Shown here piece after piece: positions 7,836-26,499 of a stretch of 64,000 nt of DNA. Positions within the stretch are counted from its first letter, which is position 1. Each line of letters begins with the position of its first letter. Source of the DNA: Devosia limi DSM 17137 (GTDB taxonomy: Bacteria > Pseudomonadota > Alphaproteobacteria > Rhizobiales > Devosiaceae); assembly GCF_900128975.1 (NCBI RefSeq), contig NZ_FQVC01000018.1, positions 1 through 64,000 of the forward strand. The letters are read 5' to 3'. A program made the translations under genes and the position numbers. A model generated the notes under the pieces. It was not told the DNA's origin, searched no databases, and was given only the letters and a program-made list of their open reading frames with translations.

Positions 7836-7929
7836 GCGCGGCGCGCCGCTATCGGGCCGGGCGGGCTGGGCGGCGGCGCCCGCCCGGTCTATCCTGGCTG
7901 CATTGCCATTACCTTGACGGACCGATTTG

Positions 7930-8409
7930 ATGACCAGTCTCGCCGATTTCACCCTGCCGCTGCTCGAGGGCACGCCCCAAAGCCTCGCCGATTACGCCGG
8001 CAAGGTGGTGCTGGTGGTCAATGTCGCCAGCAAATGCGGCCTCACGCCGCAATATGCCGGGCTCGAGGCGCTGTGGCGCGAATTGGGGCCACAGGGCCTC
8101 GTCATCCTCGGCTTTCCCTGCAACCAGTTTGGCGATCAGGAGCCGGGCAGTTCCGCCGAGATCGCCCAGTTCTGTTCGGCCACTTATGACGTGAGCTTCC
8201 CGGTCTTTGCCCGCATCGAGGTCAATGGGTCCGATGCCCATCCCCTCTATGTCTGGCTCAAATCCTCTGCCCCCGGCATTTTCGGCTCCGAGGCGATCAA
8301 ATGGAATTTCACCAAATTCCTCATCGGCCGCGACGGTCTGGTGGCCGAGCGTTTCGCCCCCACCACCGAACCCGCCGATCTCGCCGCCCCCATCCGGGCG
8401 CTGCTCTGA
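7930..8409 (+). CDS. Glutathione peroxidase
   Basis: The 159-residue thioredoxin-fold peroxidase carries all family motifs: VNVASKCGLTPQY with the peroxidatic cysteine, LGFPCNQFGDQEPG with the active-site Gln, and KWNFTKFLIGRDG with the active-site Trp and Asn. Cysteine rather than selenocysteine is used. The second Cys in FPCNQF can serve as resolving cysteine in thioredoxin-dependent members. It reduces hydroperoxides in the cytoplasm. The ATG at 7930 is preferred over an upstream in-frame TTG. It may work with the peroxiredoxin at 13215 and MsrA at 16279 as general oxidative defence. Confidence 0.93.
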   Translation: MTSLADFTLPLLEGTPQSLADYAGKVVLVVNVASKCGLTPQYAGLEALWRELGPQGLVILGFPCNQFGDQEPGSSAEIAQFCSATYDVSFPVFARIEVNGSDAHPLYVWLKSSAPGIFGSEAIKWNFTKFLIGRDGLVAERFAPTTEPADLAAPIRALL

Positions 8410-8602
8410 GCGCGGCGCCCACCGGGGCAATGGCGCTGTGGCCCCAGTGCCACAGCATCGGCCGCTTTGTCGCAGCGCCGGAACGAACCTTTCAACCACC
8501 CGTTGGTCTGGCACGGGGCGGAAAACGATGCGCGGTCCATCCCCTGGATCAGCGCTTCCGCAAACCGAATGGCCCAGCCATTCCCTTGAAAGGACAATTA
8601 CA

Positions 8603-9220
8603 ATGAACACGATTCTCAAGGCCTCCATGGCCGTGCTGACGCTCGCCATTGCCACCCCGGCCTTTGCCCAGGGCACCGTCGATGCCAATGCCTCCATTGG
8701 CGCCACCAGCGGTGGGGCTGGCGGCGCGGCACTCGGCTTTGTCGTTGGTGGCCCCATTGGCGCAGTCATTGGCGGCTTTGCCGGCGCGGTCCTCGGTGCT
8801 GAAGTCGGCGTTGCCGCCACCACGGTCGAGTTCGCCGCCGCCAATCCGGTCGAGCCGATCTATCTCGATGGCGCCGCTCTGGGCGCTGTCGTTCCGGCTG
8901 ATGTGACCATTTACCCGGTCGAGGGCGACGAGCAGTATGGCTATGTCTATGCCAATAACCGCGTCTGGATCGTCGATCTGCAGAGCCGCGCCCTGGTGCA
9001 GTCGCCGGGCTATCTGGTGCCCCAGACCGCCGCTGATTACGCCATCGGCAATCCGGTGACCTCGGCCACCGTCGAGGGTGACGTGGTCGTCGGCTATGTC
9101 GTGCCCGAAGGCGTCGAACTGGTCGCCGTGCCCGAAGATCCCACCTATTCCTACGTCTATGTCAACGATCGCCCGGCCCTGGTTGATAACAGCACCCGCG
9201 CCATCGTCTGGATCAACTAG
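8603..9220 (+). CDS. DUF1236-domain exported protein with glycine zipper
   Basis: The 205-residue product has a signal peptide (ILKASMAVLTLAIATPAFAQ), a glycine-zipper segment (about residues 38-70, GGAALGFVVGGPIGAVIGG) and then two DUF1236-like beta repeats, each with a YGYVYANNR or YSYVYVNDRPALVD core and a terminal RAIVWI. DUF1236 proteins are common in Rhizobiales periplasms, with no proven function. AAGGAC lies 7 bp before the start. A good terminator follows at 9235. Confidence 0.82.
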   Translation: MNTILKASMAVLTLAIATPAFAQGTVDANASIGATSGGAGGAALGFVVGGPIGAVIGGFAGAVLGAEVGVAATTVEFAAANPVEPIYLDGAALGAVVPADVTIYPVEGDEQYGYVYANNRVWIVDLQSRALVQSPGYLVPQTAADYAIGNPVTSATVEGDVVVGYVVPEGVELVAVPEDPTYSYVYVNDRPALVDNSTRAIVWIN

Positions 9221-17511: not shown

Positions 17512-17601
17512 GGAGAGATGGCCGAGTGGTCGAAGGCGCACGCCTGGAAAGTGTGTAGGCGGGGAACCGTCTCAAGGGTTCGAATCCCTTTCTCTCCGCC
17601 A
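17512..17601 (+). tRNA. tRNA-Ser (anticodon GGA)
   Basis: Full cloverleaf: acceptor stem GGAGAGA pairs with TCTCTCC, the D arm is GCC..GGC, the anticodon loop is CTGGAAA (anticodon GGA), and a long variable arm (AGGCGG..CCGTCT) marks the class II serine type. The T arm is AAGGG-TTCGAAT-CCCTT, and G then an encoded CCA end the gene. A T-rich stretch (17619-17652) follows. This is the left border of a low-GC island, a typical tRNA insertion site. Confidence 0.97.
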
Positions 17602-17726: not shown

Positions 17727-18602
17727 TTGAGCAGCACCGATCAAAGGCAGCACCTCTTATTCGAGCGTGAAACTCACTTTCGTAACTTCCAACTTTGGCC
17801 GCTAGCGAACAAGCTGGACCTGCGTCGGTGGCTGGGCAATTTTGAGAATGCAGAACAGGAGTTTGCTCTCAGATTAGCGAACGCGTTCTGCTATTTCTCG
17901 GATGACGCGGTGGATGCGCTTTTTAGAGCCTCTGTGCAGCGATATTTCAATGTTCTGGCTTCGCGGAAAACACTGTCGGCAACACAGCCTCTTCATCGGC
18001 TGGCGTTTGTGCCTGTTGAAGGCGAGACGCCGAATACCACCGATAGTGGTCATCTCTTCGCAAGACGGCTCAAAAAGAAGATGGGGGTACCGGAGGCGAG
18101 AATTCTCTACCCCGCTAACGTTATCCAGAGCCACTCCAACTATGACACCATCATTTTCGTCGATGATTTCGTCGGCAGTGGCAATCAGATGGAGGAAACT
18201 TTCCGTAGATCTTATGAAGGGCAATCCTTTTGGGAGCTAGCTCACTCTAGGCAGATGACCTTCGGATATTGTGCATGCGTGTTCACCGAGAAAGGGCTGA
18301 ACAGATTGCGCACCAACCTTCCCATGCTTGATCTTTCTCCAGCTCACGTGACTGGAGAGGATTACAATCTTTCATTGCCTTCTTCTTCGTTCTGGAGTGG
18401 ACTTGAACCGAGTGCGATAGAAGCGTTCCTCCGCAGCGCAAGCGCTAGGGCGGGCTTCACCAGAGAAGACCATTCCGAGGAAGATTGGCGCGGCTTTCAT
18501 GGCTTGGGACTCGGTGTCGGATTTAGTCATGGGATTCCCGACGCAAACCTTGCGTTGTTTTGGTCCCAGCGGAACGACTGGAAGCCGCTGGTAAGGTGGT
18601 AG
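17727..18602 (+). CDS. Phosphoribosyltransferase-like protein (PRTase-CE type), first gene of island operon
   Basis: The 291-residue product starts at TTG 17727 (MSSTDQRQHLLFERETHFRN). Residues about 145-160 read YDTIIFVDDFVGSGNQMEET, the PRPP-binding loop of type I phosphoribosyltransferases (two acidic residues, then a Gly-rich turn), preceded by a helical segment with ALRLANAFCYFSDDAVDALF. As I recall, proteins like this have been grouped as PRTase-CE, a conflict-system branch beside AAA ATPases; I could not check. It is not a purine or pyrimidine salvage enzyme by context. The next gene starts 2 bp after its stop. Base composition is low GC. Confidence 0.7.
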   Translation: MSSTDQRQHLLFERETHFRNFQLWPLANKLDLRRWLGNFENAEQEFALRLANAFCYFSDDAVDALFRASVQRYFNVLASRKTLSATQPLHRLAFVPVEGETPNTTDSGHLFARRLKKKMGVPEARILYPANVIQSHSNYDTIIFVDDFVGSGNQMEETFRRSYEGQSFWELAHSRQMTFGYCACVFTEKGLNRLRTNLPMLDLSPAHVTGEDYNLSLPSSSFWSGLEPSAIEAFLRSASARAGFTREDHSEEDWRGFHGLGLGVGFSHGIPDANLALFWSQRNDWKPLVRW

Positions 18603-18604
18603 GC

Positions 18605-20473
18605 ATGGACACAGATAGTGACAAAGCCCAGAACTTGCAGGAGCTGTTTGGCAGCTTTCGTGCTGAGTGGCTTGAGCACAGGTTATATTCGCTCTTTAGT
18701 GAACCTGAGTATTTCCCAACACTTCGCGATAAGCGTCCCTGCGCTTTGGTGGGAGGGAGAGGTTCGGGTAAGACGACTGTACTAAGGTGCATGTCTTACG
18801 AAGGTCAGTTTGCTCTATCCGGGGAGAGTATTGAGGCTTTCGACAAATCTGATTTTATCGGGCTATACTTTCGCGTGAACACCCCGCACGTAACTGCCTT
18901 CTCGGGGCCTGACCTTAGCGACTTGGACTGGCGGAAGCTTTTCTCACACTATATCAACCTGATAATTTGCGAACAAATTGCAGCATTTGCCTGTTGGTAT
19001 TCCCATAAAGCCGATGAAGAACATCTACTGTCAGCTTCCGCCTGTCGCAGGATAAGTGCGACTTTAGGTGTCGCGGAAGTTGTCGGGGTGAAAGATCTGC
19101 TCGGCTCTATTCGCTCAGCGATACATGAAATCGAATTATACATTAACAACATTGACGTAAAGCGCCCGGCGCTGTCGATGTTGCAGCGTCCAATTGAACA
19201 ATTCATCGCTGAATTAAGAAGTACGGACTACTTTTCGAGTAAAACTATCTATATCATCGTAGATGAATACGAGAACCTGCTTGATTATCAGCAAATAATC
19301 GTGAACACGCTAATAAAGCACTCTGGTTCTGGTTATGTTTTCAAATTGGGGGTTCGTGAACTTGGTTGGCGTACAAAGTCTACCCTTAACGAGAATGAAC
19401 AGCTGATCAGCCCTGCCGACTACGAACTGATAAGTATAGAAGAAAGACTTGGCCCCAATTTCAGAGAATTTTCGAGGCGTGTTTGTGAAGCTCGTCTATC
19501 AGACTGGTATGCAAAGTATGGAATGCAGCACCTTGCTCTAAAGGATCTTCTCCCAAATCTAACCTACGAAGATGAGGCTATACGGTTAGGCGTAGTAGAG
19601 CAGGTCAAAGATATTAAAGCGCAGATGAAGCGTCTTACGCTTCGGCGGCCGCTGGAGGAGATACATCCTCTCGTTCTATTTGTGTTTCAGGCGCTCAATC
19701 CCGGCAATTTAGGCGCAGCCATTGCGGAAATTGCTGATTTTGCTGCAGGGCAGGTGGATAAAAAGGAGCGGTACAACAACTACAAATATGCGATGCTGTT
19801 TAAGATATCTGGCCCAAAGTCGGATATATCTAAGTATTATTGCGGAAATGCGGTTTTTGCTACCATTTCAAGTTCCAACATTAGGTTTTATCTTCAGCTT
19901 GTAGCTGAGAGTATGTCCCTTCAATTGCGATCCGGTAAAGCGGTTTCCGAGCCGATATCACCTGAGGATCAAACTAAAGCAGCCCGTGCAATCGGCCTGC
20001 GATACTTAAACGAGCTTGAGGGAATGACTGCAAGGGGGGCCCAGATAGTCAAGCTGCTGCTCGGATTCGGTCGTCTTTTTCAGATATTGTCTATGAATCC
20101 AATAGGTGGGAAACCTGAGTGTACTCAGTTTCAATTGACTCCTACCGGACGAGATGGCTCCAATTACGAAGCCGCCAAGTCGGTACTTAATCAGGCCGTC
20201 ATGCACTTAGGATTCGTACGTCATCCTGGCACAAAGCTAAGCACGGTTGCCGACACGAGAGAGTGGGACTACTCACTTCATCCAATATTTGCGCCATATT
20301 TCAACTTCAGCCATCGCCGTAAACGCAAAATGGACGTTCGTGATATCGATGTGCTGGCGATGATCGATAAACCAAAGGATACCATCAGAGCACTGTTGAA
20401 GGACCGCTCTGATTTGGCCGAACAGGACGCACCTGTTCAGCTTCGGCTTTTTGAAGAATACCTTTCGGGCTGA
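18605..20473 (+). CDS. Large P-loop ATPase (ORC/CDC6-like AAA type), island operon
   Basis: The 622-residue protein has Walker A CALVGGRGSGKTTVLRCMSY (residues about 49-68) and Walker B KTIYIIVDEYENLLDYQQ (about residue 220). The region between holds long helices. The C-terminal half (about 350-622) is likely a winged-helix and helical effector or sensor module, with NFSHRRKRKMDVRDIDVL near the end. This resembles ORC-CDC6-like AAA ATPases found in bacterial conflict islands. The ATG at 18605 follows the previous stop by 2 bp. In the operon it is the likely sensor or motor. AT-rich codon use throughout supports transfer. Confidence 0.72.
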   Translation: MDTDSDKAQNLQELFGSFRAEWLEHRLYSLFSEPEYFPTLRDKRPCALVGGRGSGKTTVLRCMSYEGQFALSGESIEAFDKSDFIGLYFRVNTPHVTAFSGPDLSDLDWRKLFSHYINLIICEQIAAFACWYSHKADEEHLLSASACRRISATLGVAEVVGVKDLLGSIRSAIHEIELYINNIDVKRPALSMLQRPIEQFIAELRSTDYFSSKTIYIIVDEYENLLDYQQIIVNTLIKHSGSGYVFKLGVRELGWRTKSTLNENEQLISPADYELISIEERLGPNFREFSRRVCEARLSDWYAKYGMQHLALKDLLPNLTYEDEAIRLGVVEQVKDIKAQMKRLTLRRPLEEIHPLVLFVFQALNPGNLGAAIAEIADFAAGQVDKKERYNNYKYAMLFKISGPKSDISKYYCGNAVFATISSSNIRFYLQLVAESMSLQLRSGKAVSEPISPEDQTKAARAIGLRYLNELEGMTARGAQIVKLLLGFGRLFQILSMNPIGGKPECTQFQLTPTGRDGSNYEAAKSVLNQAVMHLGFVRHPGTKLSTVADTREWDYSLHPIFAPYFNFSHRRKRKMDVRDIDVLAMIDKPKDTIRALLKDRSDLAEQDAPVQLRLFEEYLSG

Positions 20474-20477
20474 TGAA

Positions 20478-21398
20478 ATGATTAGAGCGCTGCCCTCAAG
20501 GGTTTTTGACAGCCTCGCCGAAGTTCCCTTTGGAAGCGATACCGTTCTTATTCACGGCACGTTGGAAGACCGAAGTAAGTTGCCGGTTCATTGGAGCGGA
20601 GGCACGAGTAACTTGCATTCCGTAGAGCTAAGTGAAACAGGAAATTTGTTTGAATTTTTGCTGCAAAACAATGACTTGGTATCCACTAGAAGAAAATCAT
20701 CCATCCTAAAGTTCTTGGACTCGGTTGGCGGCAATTCAATTTGTCTGGATATTACCGGCCTGTCCCACCACGTCTGGATGCCACTGGTAAAATTGCTAAT
20801 CGATGAGCATAGAGATTTTCAGTGCATCTACTCTGAACCCAGAACGTATACTTCAAAGATGAACCCACGCCCCGGTGAGTTTTTCGACCTGAGCGAGCGT
20901 ATTCGGGGCTTTTCCCCCGTTCCTACCTTTATCACAGTAGCAAACTTGGCTGAGTTTGATTCCTGCGTCGTGCCGCTGTTGGGGTTCGAGGGAACTCGGC
21001 TTAAGTACCTAATTGAAACGCTGCAACCTGAAGGAAAGAATGTATTTCCGGTTGTAGGTGTCCCGGGCTTCAAGTTGGAATACCCGTTCCATACTTACGA
21101 AGGAAACGCTGATGCTCTTGAATCTGATAGGGCATGGACAAACGTGGCCTTTGTTGATGCTGCATGCCCTTTTTCGCTGTTCCATTCATTGGATGACATT
21201 AAGCGCACGAGGAGTACCAGCCAGCTGAAGATAGCTCCTATTGGGACCAAGCCACATGCGTTAGGTGCAGCGATCTACGCGGTACGTAATCCAACAGCTG
21301 AGTTGGTGTACGACCACCCCATAAGAAAGAAAACGCGCAGTACTGGAGCTGGTAGATGTCATGTTTATAACGTCTCAGAGTTCATTCGATCGCTTTGA
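20478..21398 (+). CDS. Unrecognised protein with Rossmann-like core, island operon
   Basis: The 306-residue product (from MIRALPSRVFDSLAEVPFGS) has no family I can name. Strand-helix alternation is visible: DTVLIHGTLEDRSKLPVHW, NSICLDITGLSHHVWMPLVK, QCIYSEPRTYTSK, and near the end IAPIGTKPHALGAAIYAV and AELVYDHPIRKKTRSTGAG. The DITGL and YSEPRTYT pieces recall Rossmann-like nucleotide-sensing domains, but that is a guess. Two TTG/ATG starts are possible; the ATG at 20478 lies 4 bp after the ATPase stop. It overlaps the methyltransferase start by 38 bp, which ties it to the same operon. Confidence 0.65.
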   Translation: MIRALPSRVFDSLAEVPFGSDTVLIHGTLEDRSKLPVHWSGGTSNLHSVELSETGNLFEFLLQNNDLVSTRRKSSILKFLDSVGGNSICLDITGLSHHVWMPLVKLLIDEHRDFQCIYSEPRTYTSKMNPRPGEFFDLSERIRGFSPVPTFITVANLAEFDSCVVPLLGFEGTRLKYLIETLQPEGKNVFPVVGVPGFKLEYPFHTYEGNADALESDRAWTNVAFVDAACPFSLFHSLDDIKRTRSTSQLKIAPIGTKPHALGAAIYAVRNPTAELVYDHPIRKKTRSTGAGRCHVYNVSEFIRSL

Positions 21399-22464
21399 GT
21401 TGGACCGATTAGACAGGTACTACACTCCTAGTGTGCTTGCAGATCAGCTGGTCAGTCTCTGCCGGTGTGAAGAGGTAGAAAGCATCGCGGACTTCGCAGC
21501 CGGTGCAGGAAGTTTGCTTTTGGCGGCAAAACAGAGATGGCCCAACGCGTTGTTGTTCGCCAATGATATAGATAGTGCCGCGAATTCACTGCACAGTTCA
21601 GAGATACACAAGAAGGCTAACTTCAACTTTCTCTCTGAGGAATTCGTCGCTCCTCGTAGCGTGGGCCGCTTTAAATTGGTCCTCTTGAATCCTCCGTTCA
21701 GCGAAGTGAGTCGGTCGACCAGTGGAGACGTAGGCCCGAGCTGCAGCCGAGCACTAGCATTCGTTTTGAAAGCTCTGACGTTTTTGGCCGACGATGGTGA
21801 ACTGATCGCTTTGCTGCCAAGCAATATCCTAACCAGCTTGAAGGATCGTGAGGCTCTCACCTATCTCCGTTCCGAGTACCGGGTGGAGGTCGTGCTGCCG
21901 CCAACCAGAGGCATGTTTGGCAGTGCTGACGTTTCCATCTGTGCCTTGCGGTTGTCCATAGTAAGCCACTTGCCACCACCTACGAGCTACCAGCGGAGCG
22001 TTGAAAAGGCCTCCAAAAGGTGGAGCATTGGTAGGGGCGAAGTGTCTGTTTCTAGGGCAGCTCGAAAGCGAACGGCTGGGGCTGGATGGGTTCACACCAC
22101 AAGCATCGCTGATAATGATATCGTTCACCGCTATGAGGCAGCTGATCCGATAATGAAGAGAAAAGCCTGTCCGCATGGTTCAATTTTGATCCCGCGAGTA
22201 GGTGGATTTCAAAAGCAGAAAAGTGTTCTTTTGAGCAGTGATGTTTCGGAAGTAATTTCGGATTGCATAATTTGGATATGGCACGAGGACAGGGAAGCGG
22301 TGAAAGAGCTATTTAGCTATTTGAACTCACATCATGCTGATCTAGGTAGTCTGTATTCAGGTACGGGGGCTCAATTTGTCACGTATGAGCGGATCGGTAT
22401 CTTTATCGACGATTGGTGTAACCAATCCATGTTCTTTAGCGATATTGAACACCGTTCCGACTGA
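21361..22464 (+). CDS. N6-adenine DNA methyltransferase-like protein, island operon
   Basis: The 367-residue product has a gamma-class methyltransferase core: motif X/I region RYYTPSVLADQLVSLC and SIADFAAGAGSLLLAAKQR (AdoMet binding), FANDIDSAANSL, and catalytic motif IV LVLLNPPFSEVS. Then ADDGELIALLPSNILTSL and DISICALRLS-like strands follow. The remaining C-terminal part is too short for a full type I target-recognition set, and no specificity or restriction subunit is encoded. It starts inside the previous gene and ends inside the convergent recombinase gene (108-bp overlap at 22357-22464). The likely role is self-DNA marking or modification within the four-gene system. Confidence 0.8.
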   Translation: MFITSQSSFDRFELDRLDRYYTPSVLADQLVSLCRCEEVESIADFAAGAGSLLLAAKQRWPNALLFANDIDSAANSLHSSEIHKKANFNFLSEEFVAPRSVGRFKLVLLNPPFSEVSRSTSGDVGPSCSRALAFVLKALTFLADDGELIALLPSNILTSLKDREALTYLRSEYRVEVVLPPTRGMFGSADVSICALRLSIVSHLPPPTSYQRSVEKASKRWSIGRGEVSVSRAARKRTAGAGWVHTTSIADNDIVHRYEAADPIMKRKACPHGSILIPRVGGFQKQKSVLLSSDVSEVISDCIIWIWHEDREAVKELFSYLNSHHADLGSLYSGTGAQFVTYERIGIFIDDWCNQSMFFSDIEHRSD

Positions 22465-23007
22465 TATGCCGTGGCTGCTAGCGACCTTTCGATACGAAGC
22501 GCCCGAGTTAAGATCTTGGATGATCCAATGATGGTCGATACGGGATTTCGGTCTTCCTAGCGAAGTACCTGATTGCTTCGTCCTTGCCAGTCCAAGTTTG
22601 ACCCGTTCCGAAATCATGCTCCGTTCAAATTCTGCGAATACCCCACACATCTGGTAAAGTGCCTTGCCGGAAGGAGTTGTTGTGTCGAGGGCTTGTTGGT
22701 GTAAGTACAGATCGACACCATTGGCATGCAGATCATCCAGCGCTTGCACCAAACTAGCTAGGCTACGACCCAACCTAGACACATCCCAAGCCATGATTAC
22801 ATCAAACTTTGCCCTGACTGCCTCCTTAAGCATTAGATCGTAGGCTGGTCTTTTGTCTCGCCCTTTTGCTCCGCTGATCCCTTGGTCCTCATAGACAGCT
22901 ACTACTTTCCAATTTCTAGAGACCACAACTCTCTCAAGTTCGATGCGCTGATTATCCGTAGTCTGCTCTTTTGTGCTTACTCGCAGATACAACACCGCCC
23001 GCTTCAT
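22357..23007 (-). CDS. Serine recombinase (resolvase/invertase family)
   Basis: The 216-residue product starts MKRAVLYLRVSTKEQTTDNQ with the catalytic Ser in RVSTKEQ. DVIMAWDVSRLGRSLASLVQ and YQMCGVFAEFERSMISERVK give the conserved Arg residues of the catalytic domain and the E-helix. The C-terminal helix-turn-helix is at about residues 160-195 (SYRKVASSHGISVGTVFNIA). Length and layout match small Tn3-type resolvases and DNA invertases. A 30-bp dyad lies directly upstream (23018-23047). It may serve island mobility or flip/delete a nearby segment. Its last 108 bp overlap the methyltransferase gene. Confidence 0.92.
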   Translation of the reverse strand: MKRAVLYLRVSTKEQTTDNQRIELERVVVSRNWKVVAVYEDQGISGAKGRDKRPAYDLMLKEAVRAKFDVIMAWDVSRLGRSLASLVQALDDLHANGVDLYLHQQALDTTTPSGKALYQMCGVFAEFERSMISERVKLGLARTKQSGTSLGRPKSRIDHHWIIQDLNSGASYRKVASSHGISVGTVFNIAKEHGLVTPIVDKDTDPLIRDKLSPRT

Positions 23008-23047: not shown

Positions 23048-23218
23048 ATAAATTGACAGCGTACAAGTGAGGGTTTGTGGTGTTATTTCGAGGGTGAGGT
23101 CGGGAGGGTTTTTTGAATGGCGCTAGCCGTCAGTAACCACCTTAGGTATTGCTGCCGCCTGAGGTGTTGCTGCGTTTGCAAAGTAATTCTAGACTGGGAG
23201 GAAACAGGGGGGGGGATT

Positions 23219-24067
23219 ATGCGGGTTGTTTATACGGCCGTACTGGTAGTTTCTTGTATATTGTTGACAGCAGGAACGACACACGCTCAGCGATTAACTG
23301 ATGTTCCACCAGTTGAATCCGTCTCCGACCTGCCATGGGTTACCTACCCTTCAATGGGTGTGATAAGCGATCAGGCAGAAGTTTCTCTGCAGGGCGGATT
23401 GTACTTTTTAGGAGAAGAAGCGACTAGCCGATTTCTGGTGTTGAACGGCAATCCCGCGAGACGGGGGCAGTTCACGTTAGCTCCCGAAAGCTTGGCTTGG
23501 TTCGCTATCTTCAACTTTGATGCGTCGGGCTACGTCAGGGACGACGAGAAAATCGACGCCGACGCCCTTTTAAGTACGTTGAAAGAGCAAAATGCAAGTG
23601 GCTTTGAAGAGCGAAAACGGCTTGGACTTACTCAACTAACATTAGTCGATTGGTCCGTGCCGCCCCACTATGACGCTACTACAAAGCGACTTGAATGGGG
23701 CACACTCTTAATGGCGTCAGATGGCACCGAAGTTGCGAATTATACAGTCAGGATCTTGGGTCGATCTGGGGTTATGAGAGCAGTATTAGTTTCTGACACT
23801 CCGGCTTTGAAAACTAACGTTGCAGCATTTCATGCCAGTCTTGCCGGTTTTGGCTTTTTGCCTGCTCACCAGTATGGGGCATATCAACAAGGAGACAGGA
23901 TTGCCGAATACGGACTGGCGGCGCTGATAGTCGGTGGAGCGGCAGCTGTGGCCACTAAATCGGGGTTTCTGAAGACATTTGGAGTGTTTCTGTTTGCGAT
24001 CGGGGCTGCTGTAGTGGCTGCAATTGGAGCACTGTTTCGAAGAGTATTTAGGCGCTCCAGTACATGA
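23219..24067 (+). CDS. DUF2167 family membrane protein
   Basis: The 282-residue product has a signal peptide (MRVVYTAVLVVSCILLTAGT), DUF2167 blocks SLQGGLYFLGEEATSRFLVL, NFDASGYVRDDEKIDADALL, LTLVDWSVPPHYDATTKRLEWG, NYTVRILGRSGVMRAVLVSD and DRIAEYGLAALIVGGAAAVA, and a C-terminal transmembrane segment with a basic tail. The family is exported and anchored in the inner membrane; function unknown. GGGAGGAAAC and the ATG at 23219 define the start; an upstream in-frame start would add a Cys-rich unnatural leader. It forms a pair with the next gene. Its presence inside the island is unusual for a gene normally tied to stress loci. Confidence 0.88.
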   Translation: MRVVYTAVLVVSCILLTAGTTHAQRLTDVPPVESVSDLPWVTYPSMGVISDQAEVSLQGGLYFLGEEATSRFLVLNGNPARRGQFTLAPESLAWFAIFNFDASGYVRDDEKIDADALLSTLKEQNASGFEERKRLGLTQLTLVDWSVPPHYDATTKRLEWGTLLMASDGTEVANYTVRILGRSGVMRAVLVSDTPALKTNVAAFHASLAGFGFLPAHQYGAYQQGDRIAEYGLAALIVGGAAAVATKSGFLKTFGVFLFAIGAAVVAAIGALFRRVFRRSST

Positions 24068-25240: not shown

Positions 25241-25573
25241 TTGTTAGAAGAAGTGTCCGCCAGCCAGCTAGCAGAGCTAGAGGCATCATTTAATTTGCCC
25301 ATCTATCTGCCCTCATCCGAGTCACTCCTTGCTACGGAGCTGAGCTTCCCCATGTTCGGAGAGATTAGGGGCGACCAGAAGTACAGAAATGACCTAGAGA
25401 GCCTGTCCAACGCCGTGCTTGATCGTCTGGCGAGGGCCGCCACCCCGAGTATCCATAGTAAGGTTAGAAGGCACCTCCATGAACATCGCAAGTCCATGCT
25501 TTCCATCATGCACAGCCTCGCCCATGCATGCTCACTGAATAGCCCCGCGTTCTGTAGACACCTTCGGGGTTAG
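25241..25573 (+). pseudogene. Island gene interrupted by the IS3 remnant
   Basis: The frame opens with TTG (MLEEVSASQLAELEASFNLP), just after an in-frame stop at 25226, and runs 110 codons. The last few codons (from about CRHLRG) already come from the IS3 end, so the original protein continued and has been cut. The visible part is helical with LATELSFPMFGEIRGDQKYR and a basic segment KVRRHLHEHRKSML. I recognise no family. The promoter at 25021 probably belonged to it. Confidence 0.5.
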
Positions 25574-26490
25574 ATTTGGTGTCGTCGTTCGAACTCGACA
25601 GGTGAGAGCATGCCGTTGCGGACGTGCTTGCGGGTCGGGTTGTAGAACATCTCGATGTAATCGAACACATCCTGGCGGGCCTCGTCTCGGGTTCGATAGG
25701 TGCGGCGCCTGATCCTCTCGCGCTTGAGAAGGTTGAAGAAGCTTTCGGCCACAGCATTGTCATGGCAGTTGCCACGGCGGCTCATGGAGTGAACCAGATT
25801 GTGGTGCCGCAGGAAGCTGGCCCAGTCCATGCTGGTGAACTGGGAGCCCTGATCGGAATGGACCAGCACCGTGTTCTGTGGCTTGCGGCGCCAGACAGCC
25901 ATGTGCAGGGCCTGAAGGACGACCTCACTGGTCTGCCGGCTTTGTAGCGACCAGCCGATGACGCGACGCGAGAACAGGTCAATGACCACGGCCAGATAGG
26001 CAAAGCCCTCCATGGTCTTGATATAGGTGATGTCGGTCACCCAGGCGGTGTCCGGCGCCTGGACGTCGAACTGCCGAGCCAGGGTGTTATCGACTACCAC
26101 TGATGGCTTGCCACCATAAGAACCAGGCCGCCGCCGATAGCCGATCTGGGCCTTGATCCCGGCGAGCCTGGCCAGGCGGGCGATGCGGTTGGCACAGCTG
26201 GTCTCGCCCTGATCGAGCAGGTCGTCATGAAGCTTGCGGTAGCCATAGACCTTGCCGCTCTGCTTCCAGGCATCCTCGATCAGCTGGGTCTGGCGAATGT
26301 CTTCCTGGGCCCGCTTGCTCAAGGGGCTTCTGAGCCAGGCATAGAAACCGCTGGGGTGGATGCGCAGACACCGGCACATGGTGCGCACCGAAAACTGCTC
26401 GCGATGCTCGGCGACGAACGCGTACCTCACTTTGCATCCTTGGCGAAGTACGCGGCCGCTTTTTTTAGGATGTCGCGCTCCTCGGTAAAC
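25554..26490 (-). mobile_element. IS3-family insertion sequence, left part deleted
   Basis: The right end is taken at TGTAGACACC (25554), which is where the island ORF is broken. Nearly all of orfB is present, but only the last about 20 codons of orfA remain (EERDILKKAAAYFAKDAK) before the sequence becomes unrelated near 26,490. The element therefore cannot move by itself. The breakpoint joins island DNA to the catabolic block on the right, so an IS-linked deletion probably removed the island's right end. Confidence 0.75.
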
Positions 26491-26499
26491 CGAAACCAC
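25570..26499 (-). CDS. IS3-family transposase OrfB (DDE recombinase)
   Basis: About 285 residues of true OrfB are present: the HTH_21-like part MCRCLRIHPSGFYAWLRSPL, then the rve integrase core with DTAWVTDITYIKTMEGFAYL (first Asp), VLVHSDQGSQFTSMDWASFL (second Asp) and NCHDNAVAESFFNLLKRERI (catalytic Glu), ending PVEFERRHQI. All DDE residues are intact. The frame continues upstream into orfA sequence, as expected for -1 frameshift fusion at the A7 run at 26460-26466. Without a full orfA the protein probably lacks its DNA-binding part. Confidence 0.93.
   Translation of the reverse strand: MVSVYRGARHPKKSGRVLRQGCKVRYAFVAEHREQFSVRTMCRCLRIHPSGFYAWLRSPLSKRAQEDIRQTQLIEDAWKQSGKVYGYRKLHDDLLDQGETSCANRIARLARLAGIKAQIGYRRRPGSYGGKPSVVVDNTLARQFDVQAPDTAWVTDITYIKTMEGFAYLAVVIDLFSRRVIGWSLQSRQTSEVVLQALHMAVWRRKPQNTVLVHSDQGSQFTSMDWASFLRHHNLVHSMSRRGNCHDNAVAESFFNLLKRERIRRRTYRTRDEARQDVFDYIEMFYNPTRKHVRNGMLSPVEFERRHQI
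26460..26466 (-). other. Programmed -1 frameshift site of the IS3 element
   Basis: On the minus strand this reads AAAAAAAG, the slippery run typical of IS3 orfA/orfB junctions. The orfA frame ends 32 bp further on (AKDAK then TGA), and orfB sequence begins in the -1 frame. Confidence 0.65.

Follow-up and report, generated by a model that had tools for sequence, protein, structure and literature searches.

A PRTase-CE, ORC/CDC6-like ATPase, CARF6 and DNA methyltransferase operon in Devosia limi as a candidate modification-gated immune system

Four tightly packed open reading frames (ORFs) on the plus strand at positions 17727–22464 of a 64,000-nt stretch of Devosia limi DSM 17137 (NZ_FQVC01000018.1; the whole stretch is hereafter called the window) are predicted to encode a phosphoribosyltransferase (PRTase) of the PRTase-CE family, an ORC/CDC6-like ATPase, a CARF6-family protein and a DNA methyltransferase. 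Family membership and gene neighbourhoods suggest, with a rough probability of 0.45, that these genes form a modification-gated innate immune system in which a DNA-loading ATPase and a CARF nucleotide sensor are joined to an exchangeable effector slot, occupied here by the PRTase. The window genes, which served as reference for the protein identities given below, are:

17727–18602, plus strand: gene 1, PRTase-CE protein, 291 residues (PF24390, E 2e-42; PADLOC PRTase_III-A, E 4e-21)
18605–20473, plus strand: gene 2, ORC/CDC6-like AAA+ ATPase, 622 residues (PF24389, E 1.4e-122)
20478–21398, plus strand: gene 3, predicted CARF6-family protein, about 306 residues from ATG 20478 or 315 residues from TTG 20451 (PADLOC PDLC01913)
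21361–22464, plus strand: gene 4, predicted N6-adenine DNA methyltransferase, 367 residues (PF02384, E 8.6e-8; PF05175, E 7.3e-8)

An earlier note on this DNA had described gaps of 2 and 4 bp followed by a 38-bp overlap, and the ORF coordinates confirm this spacing exactly, with 2 bp between genes 1 and 2, 4 bp between genes 2 and 3 (with ATG 20478) and the overlap between genes 3 and 4.

PRTase, ATPase, CARF6 protein and methyltransferase were found together in all 16 non-redundant loci of this subtype, spanning alpha-, beta- and gammaproteobacteria, Myxococcota, plasmids and IMG/VR contigs. The multi-gene system proposed in the earlier note thus extends to unrelated bacteria; of the fixed gene order also considered there, the adjacency stood in 16 of 16 loci, but the side and strand of the methyltransferase vary. 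The loci comprise the window (genome G000), three genome loci (L002 from Phaeobacter, G398; L003 from Corallococcus, G399; L050 in G043), five from plasmids, six from an IMG/VR scan made with the ATPase only and one from a phage collection (L072). Hidden Markov models from our own four alignments were applied to 15 of them (the window, L002, L003, L006–L010, L041–L046 and L050). The alignments behind the models contain eight of these 15 loci for each of the ATPase, the PRTase and gene 4, and nine for gene 3; the four-gene labels of those loci therefore hold by construction. The sixteenth, L072, one of two like matches in the phage collection, was assigned by annotation and translation, and the copies L001, L004, L005, L011 and L012 were left out of the counts. 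Nine loci came from the IMG/VR scan with the ATPase alignment, including three (L047–L049) with the core trio of genes 1–3 but without a gene 4-type methyltransferase, and three further viral scans gave no additional contigs. In all 16 loci, and in L047–L049 as well, the gene 3 relative matches PADLOC CARF6 models; the best models among relatives are PDLC01913, 01920, 01914, 01917, 01919, 01910 and 01916. Among 398 genomes of the phylum, gene 3 found matches in two (the own genome and G043), and of the single-protein searches for related loci one returned two loci (L002 and L003) and another none.

Divergence was compared in 15 loci (L044 omitted, L072 included), where identity to the window proteins was 15–41% for gene 1, 21–53% for gene 2, 19–54% for gene 3 and 18–42% for gene 4. 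The distance matrices of genes 1–3 correlate with r values of 0.89, 0.89 and 0.92 (PRTase versus CARF6, 0.89), and that of gene 4 with genes 1, 2 and 3 at 0.66, 0.81 and 0.77. All six values exceed everything obtained in 2000 shuffles; they derive from few loci (15) with shared ancestry. Of 15 loci, 8 have the methyltransferase downstream in the direction of the trio, 2 have it downstream but inverted and 5 have it upstream. On the basis of these correlations and positions, genes 1–3 move as a unit, to which the methyltransferase is joined in various arrangements.

When 72,556 plasmid records were searched by tblastn, gene 3 was matched in 147 (128 from Klebsiella; 132 typed as conjugative), gene 2 in 152 (130 from Klebsiella) and gene 1, which evolves faster, in 7. 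Five plasmid loci were read, and records from Rhizobium, Sinorhizobium, Bradyrhizobium, Serratia and Enterobacter plasmids lie outside that set. The Klebsiella version of genes 1–3 is present in 4 of 5426 Escherichia coli genomes, in each case plasmid-borne and in strains named C600 or J53, which are apparently conjugation recipients. With relatives of the cassette on many conjugative Klebsiella plasmids, the system may bear on plasmid-borne phage resistance.

Some individual loci show features of their own. The conjugative Klebsiella plasmid pKPHS2 (L009) carries all four gene families. For gene 4, L007 (E 2.6e-52) and L046 (E 1.1e-28) give weaker scores; PLSDB annotates just 8181–8915 for gene 4 of L007, and the open frame 7857–8915 holds the methyltransferase match. 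The PRTase of L044 (7075–7962) is broken into two ORFs, with intact copies elsewhere. In L072, recorded as Acinetobacter phage MD-2021a, host genes, cstA and efp among them, surround the operon and a tRNA-Val adjoins it, and the record looks like a bacterial chromosome filed as a phage.

The PRTase-CE assignment in the earlier note agrees with the score of gene 1 against PF24390 (146.2 bits, gathering cut-off 27). The loop typical of phosphoribosyl pyrophosphate (PRPP) binding that was pointed out there, VDDFVGSGNQ, is present and includes D146 and D147 (numbering from TTG 17727); D146, D147, G152 and Q154 do not vary over the 15 loci compared. A sequence profile of gene 1 gave nothing convincing in the PDB, the best match being a uracil PRTase (E 0.056). 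PMC9122126 reports protection against T7 and lambda by a DprA-PRTase pair and regards PRTases as probable retron effectors, and for PRTase domains of phages and plasmids PMC5512222 proposes a role in nucleotide production or sensing. The DprA-PRTase result and DS-32, treated below, support a part for PRTases in defence. One further locus, L067 (7402–8949), encodes a PRTase-CE joined to an OLD-like TOPRIM domain in a single protein of 515 residues.

Gene 2, with its start taken as ATG 18605 (in the ORF list the frame begins upstream, at TTG 18560), scored 410.8 bits against PF24389 (cut-off 27). Both Walker motifs named in the earlier note were recovered, as GGRGSGKTT (Walker A, G50–T57) and IIVDEYEN (Walker B, D220–E221), and all 15 loci compared share G50, G53, G55, K56, T57, D220 and E221; the C-terminal helix/strand region contains a basic stretch. 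The AlphaFold2 model (predicted local distance difference test, pLDDT, 84) found ORC/Cdc6 chains as its top Foldseek matches, the best being a Drosophila ORC/Cdc6 entry (E 3.4e-4, probability 1.00), in line with the proposed ORC/CDC6-like assignment, with query TM-scores that are low (0.21–0.27) over the first seven rows. RdrA and BrxC (rank 36) appeared in lower rows, and the sequence profile gave no convincing PDB match.

The third protein had been called unrecognised, which holds for Pfam and NCBIfam, where it has no match, but not for PADLOC-DB, whose model CARF6--CARF_CARF_CARF (PDLC01913) matches residues 16–313 of 315 at E 1.8e-107. By this profile we assign gene 3 to the CARF6 family; this is the main addition to the earlier note, and with it nucleotide sensing enters the likely mechanism. 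The name CARF6 in PADLOC-DB reportedly goes back to Makarova et al. 2020 and their CARF classification. Folding the protein, as had been suggested, went part of the way. The AlphaFold2 model built from 12 sequences (pLDDT 81, predicted TM-score 0.86) has, by our reading of the strand order, two Rossmann-like halves, and its high-probability Foldseek rows are CARF or SAVED proteins (Can2 1.00, Cam1 0.99, Csm6 0.95, Cap4 SAVED 0.89, Card1 0.84). However, their E values exceed 1e-3, and since those of Can2, Cam1 and Csm6 are 0.0037–0.074, the fold alone is weak evidence for CARF; the top rows by E value include KaiC, at low probability. Up to E 1, the sequence profile matched nothing in the PDB, and comparison of the model with a viral structure library gave nothing informative. 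The polar residues D100, Y127, E129, Y133, E180, R183, K267, D288 and R296 are kept in at least 14 of 15 loci.

Gene 4 carries the NPPF motif reported in the earlier note, with N110, P111 and P112 identical in 15 of 15 loci, and its role as the DNA methyltransferase partner is borne out by PF02384 (over cut-off) and by its adjoining the trio in 16 of 16 loci. Its profile matches the EcoR124II M protein (E 9.5e-23), BseCI (1.3e-15) and TaqI (4.6e-12) in the PDB, all confined to the first 60% of the profile. Gene 4 is therefore best described as a predicted N6-adenine methyltransferase with an M.TaqI/HsdM-like catalytic half, and the conserved C-terminal half would be a target recognition region; in a Klebsiella relative, this half has weak type I specificity matches (E 3.4e-4). 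A gene 4-related methyltransferase (own model, E 1.4e-60) also lies beside TniQ (PF06527) in L061 (2585–3874), where the core trio is absent.

The exchangeable slot becomes apparent in the wider ORC/CDC6-CARF6 family. PF24389 was over cut-off in 14 of 398 genomes, with a long match in 10 of the 14; G331, G223, G055 and G362 match over 31–79 profile positions around Walker A and were omitted from the subtype picture, and 69 further genomes with a PF24389 match lie below the cut-off. Among the ten genomes, the first slot holds a PRTase-CE in five (the window, G043, G384, G187 and G026), an HD-CE protein in two (G049 and G366; loci L051 and L054) and a calcineurin-like phosphoesterase (Metallophos) in two (G123 and G274; L053 and L052), and in one a kinase is fused with ORC and CARF (G287; L057; PDLC01925, 1470.9 bits). 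All ten carry the PADLOC CARF6 label. The L053 and L052 loci are 99.98% identical over 10,216 bases, leaving 9 distinct loci of 10. Characteristic motifs are kept: the LHDAGN dyad in both HD proteins, GDIH/GNHD/HGH in the calcineurin-like one and the DD loop in the PRTases (our PRPP-loop pattern missed the loop in L066). A fusion of kinase, AAA, CARF and winged helix-turn-helix domains was described in 2014 (PMC4012209). Because the first enzyme is replaced by HD, calcineurin-like and kinase enzymes, gene 1 would occupy an effector slot rather than make one fixed messenger. The methyltransferase changes as well, with C5 methyltransferases (PF00145) in the L051, L054 and L057 loci (G049, G366 and G287; three genes from the trio in G366) and an N6_N4/UPF0020 methyltransferase upstream of the trio in L047–L049.

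Further observations concern members of this family. The genomes of L052 and L053 belong to the same genus group, are classed as different species and share the phosphoesterase/ORC/CARF6 stretch. At L054 (7976–9658), the HD-CE/ORC/CARF6 genes are accompanied by a Vsr mismatch endonuclease (PF03852, E 1.6e-25) in addition to the C5 methyltransferase. In L055, L056 and L058, a PRTase-CE/ORC/CARF6 trio stands beside HAD-like proteins, where PfkB (L056) and NADAR (L055) were recognised by Pfam and the rest by eye; these neighbours suggest a branch of the family concerned with sugar-phosphate or base chemistry.

CARF domains are chiefly known for sensing the cyclic oligoadenylates that Cas10 produces. 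The D. limi genome (99.96% complete) gave no match to Cas1 (PF01867), the Cas10 palm (PF22335) or SMODS (PF18144), other synthases and clustered regularly interspaced short palindromic repeat (CRISPR) arrays not having been searched. Cas10 had no match in G043, G398 or G399; SMODS was over cut-off once in G399, weak in G043 and without a match in G398. Among 11 genomes, six have a Cas10 match at E 0.001 or below, namely G049 (2.2e-29), G026 (at cut-off) and G123, G274, G384 and G287 (below cut-off). As the matches are strong in G049 and at cut-off in G026, a link between CARF and Cas10 may hold in the former and perhaps in the latter.

In the mechanism that we favour, the N6-adenine methyltransferase would mark the host DNA, as its family suggests, and the ATPase, of ORC/CDC6 type by profile, would load on incoming unmarked DNA as an ATP-driven detector or scaffold. 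Together with the ATPase, the CARF6 protein may act as a nucleotide-binding switch, a partnership consistent with the natural fusion of the two. The enzyme in the first slot would be the effector, the PRTase-CE acting on PRPP or on nucleotide or base pools and the HD hydrolase, calcineurin-like phosphoesterase or kinase taking its place elsewhere; once released, it would harm the infected cell or the invader. The defence interpretation of the earlier note is kept here as regards the conserved system, the families, the methyltransferase partner and the defence context, and is changed in that gene 3 is placed in CARF6 and the PRTase in an effector slot.

Several observations weigh against this mechanism. 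None of the four proteins is recognisable as a nuclease or NADase by Pfam, NCBIfam or PADLOC, which makes any harmful action of the PRTase hypothetical, and the PRTase-CE/TOPRIM fusion of L067 implies that the PRTase could be a regulator there and not an effector. Foldseek found nothing below E 1e-3 in the PDB for gene 3, whose CARF fold rests mainly on the PADLOC profiles. In the flanks of L053, L055, L056 and L058 no methyltransferase was recognised with the gene 4 model and by eye, and self-marking may for this reason not extend to the whole wider family.

A broader proposition, which we advance tentatively, is that of a widespread and CRISPR-independent class of immune systems with an ORC/CDC6-CARF6 core, which would sense a non-Cas10 nucleotide upon encountering unmarked invading DNA and set off an exchangeable enzyme (PRTase, HD protein, phosphoesterase or kinase), an exchangeable methyltransferase serving as self mark. 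If this is true, the PRTase version would add a novel PRPP-based chemistry, either as effector or as messenger.

The first slot may instead be read as the source of the signal: the ATPase would detect unmarked DNA, the PRTase would build a nucleotide from PRPP, and CARF6 would sense this non-Cas10 messenger and drive the ATPase or another host factor. We consider this unlikely, while acknowledging that a CARF6 protein in a genome without Cas1, Cas10 or SMODS matches, the PRPP-loop aspartates invariant in 15 of 15 loci, the correlated PRTase and CARF6 distances (r 0.89) and the nucleotide production or sensing proposed in PMC5512222 for PRTase domains of phages and plasmids all speak for it. 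Its difficulty is that CARF6 is retained when the first enzyme is an HD protein, phosphoesterase or kinase, which would not make the same messenger; this argument is not decisive, since the CARF6 subfamilies differ between the subtypes.

That the genes serve a plasmid or prophage in replication, maintenance or transfer, and not in defence, appears improbable. The 147 plasmid records with gene 3 (132 conjugative), the IMG/VR contigs, the ORC/Cdc6-like fold and the adjoining serine recombinase would fit such a module. However, the contigs of the window, L002 and L003 look chromosomal from their neighbours, the methyltransferase varies in side and strand, genes 1, 3 and 4 match PADLOC defence models, and a PRTase relative (DS-32, below) is labelled anti-phage. 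More doubtful still is ordinary restriction-modification, with the PRTase as accessory and gene 3 or a gene 2 domain as an unrecognised nuclease cutting unmethylated DNA, which would suit the polar gene 3 positions kept in at least 14 of 15 loci (D100 to R296) and the methyltransferase adjoining in 16 of 16 loci, but genes 2 and 3 match no nuclease family in Pfam, NCBIfam or PADLOC, the gene 3 profile matches no sequence of the PDB at E values up to 1, and the operon has its methyltransferase without a restriction nuclease found in these collections.

The earlier note knew of no named system with this gene set. At the level of single genes, PADLOC models match genes 1, 3 and 4 and weakly gene 2; no named system with these four genes was seen in this gene-level comparison. 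The CARF6 label, matched nearly over full length by gene 3, covers the protein alone and neither the operon nor the swap of the first enzyme. By its PADLOC match, gene 3 shares the CARF domain with ancillary effectors of type III CRISPR systems, and the "III-A" in the PRTase_III-A model matched by gene 1 hints at type III-A CRISPR, yet the D. limi genome has no Cas10 or Cas1 match; likewise, the CD-NTase (SMODS, PF18144) of CBASS (cyclic oligonucleotide-based antiphage signalling system) was not found in it. BREX (bacteriophage exclusion), SspABCDE and related systems couple an ORC/CDC6-clade ATPase to DNA modification, as set out in PMC12839542 and PMC10853773. The window operon shares this pairing, with BrxC as a low-ranking Foldseek match of gene 2, but its four proteins match no PglZ, BrxX/PglX or Ssp model and include PRTase-CE and CARF6 instead. 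Likeness to MADS (methylation-associated defence system) is confined to two weak hits, mad8 for gene 2 (E 5.8e-6) and mad2 for gene 4 (E 1.6e-10), whereas the NCBIfam MAD2 score is 12.7 bits against 720 and the other mad models are unmatched by the four proteins.

DS-32 was considered as an identity for the operon and rejected, as the partners differ. Gene 1 scored 18.8 bits against the equivalog cut-off of 250 of its NCBIfam model (NF053875, "DS32_1_antiphage"), and the proteins of L066 and L065 that exceed this cut-off are PRTase-CE (PF24390, E 3e-51 and 1.9e-51). The relative in L066 is surrounded by a helicase, NADAR, a DUF1156 methyltransferase and a DUF499 ATPase (the L065 neighbours were judged by eye), and no CARF match is present among the ORFs listed for L065 and L066. 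In PMC13092281, PRTase is one of the domains abbreviated in a DefensePredictor figure legend on validated systems, and we take NF053875 to be the PRTase meant there.

The families of genes 1–3 and the class of the methyltransferase are already catalogued. PF24389, PF24390 and PF24391 (ORC-CDC6-like, PRTase-CE and HD-CE) are numbered consecutively, which suggests that curators met them together; the theme has for this reason probably been noticed in print. In the literature searched, neither the four-gene set nor the exchange of its first enzyme or methyltransferase was found described, nor any experiment on the set, a prior description being possible. The operon ties CARF6 to DNA modification in a genome without Cas10, Cas1 or SMODS matches and beside a PRTase with an intact PRPP loop, and it bears on what CARF domains sense outside CRISPR and on what PRTases do in phage defence.

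The surroundings of the operon include two features at its borders:

17512–17601, plus strand: tRNA-Ser (gga) identified by ARAGORN, left border of the low-GC stretch
22357–23007, minus strand: serine recombinase of the resolvase family (PF00239, E 1.2e-42)

The low GC content remarked upon earlier is evident, at 0.45–0.51 per kb within 18–23 kb against 0.56–0.68 outside 17–28 kb. The "tRNA island" of the earlier note stands as far as the tRNA-Ser is concerned, which ends 125 bp directly upstream of gene 1, but not as regards an att pair: the 26-base 3' end of the tRNA is present once in the window, so no pair was found there, and an end of the island cannot be claimed. A repeat search of 17450–45000 gave a single unrelated pair, and the tRNA stretch has two other matches in the genome, at 81% and 75% identity. 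Scans for promoters (6 sites versus 5.8 in shuffles) and terminators (5 versus 5.6) showed no excess. The serine recombinase is convergent with gene 4, their 3' ends overlapping by 108 bp, and is regarded as a neighbour outside the system and a possible mobility gene of the island. Behind it, within the low-GC stretch, lies a DUF2167 protein (23117–24067, plus strand), and the lower-GC stretch also contains a transposase-like protein (25570–26499, minus strand) with an rve integrase core and HTH_21, IS3-like by eye.

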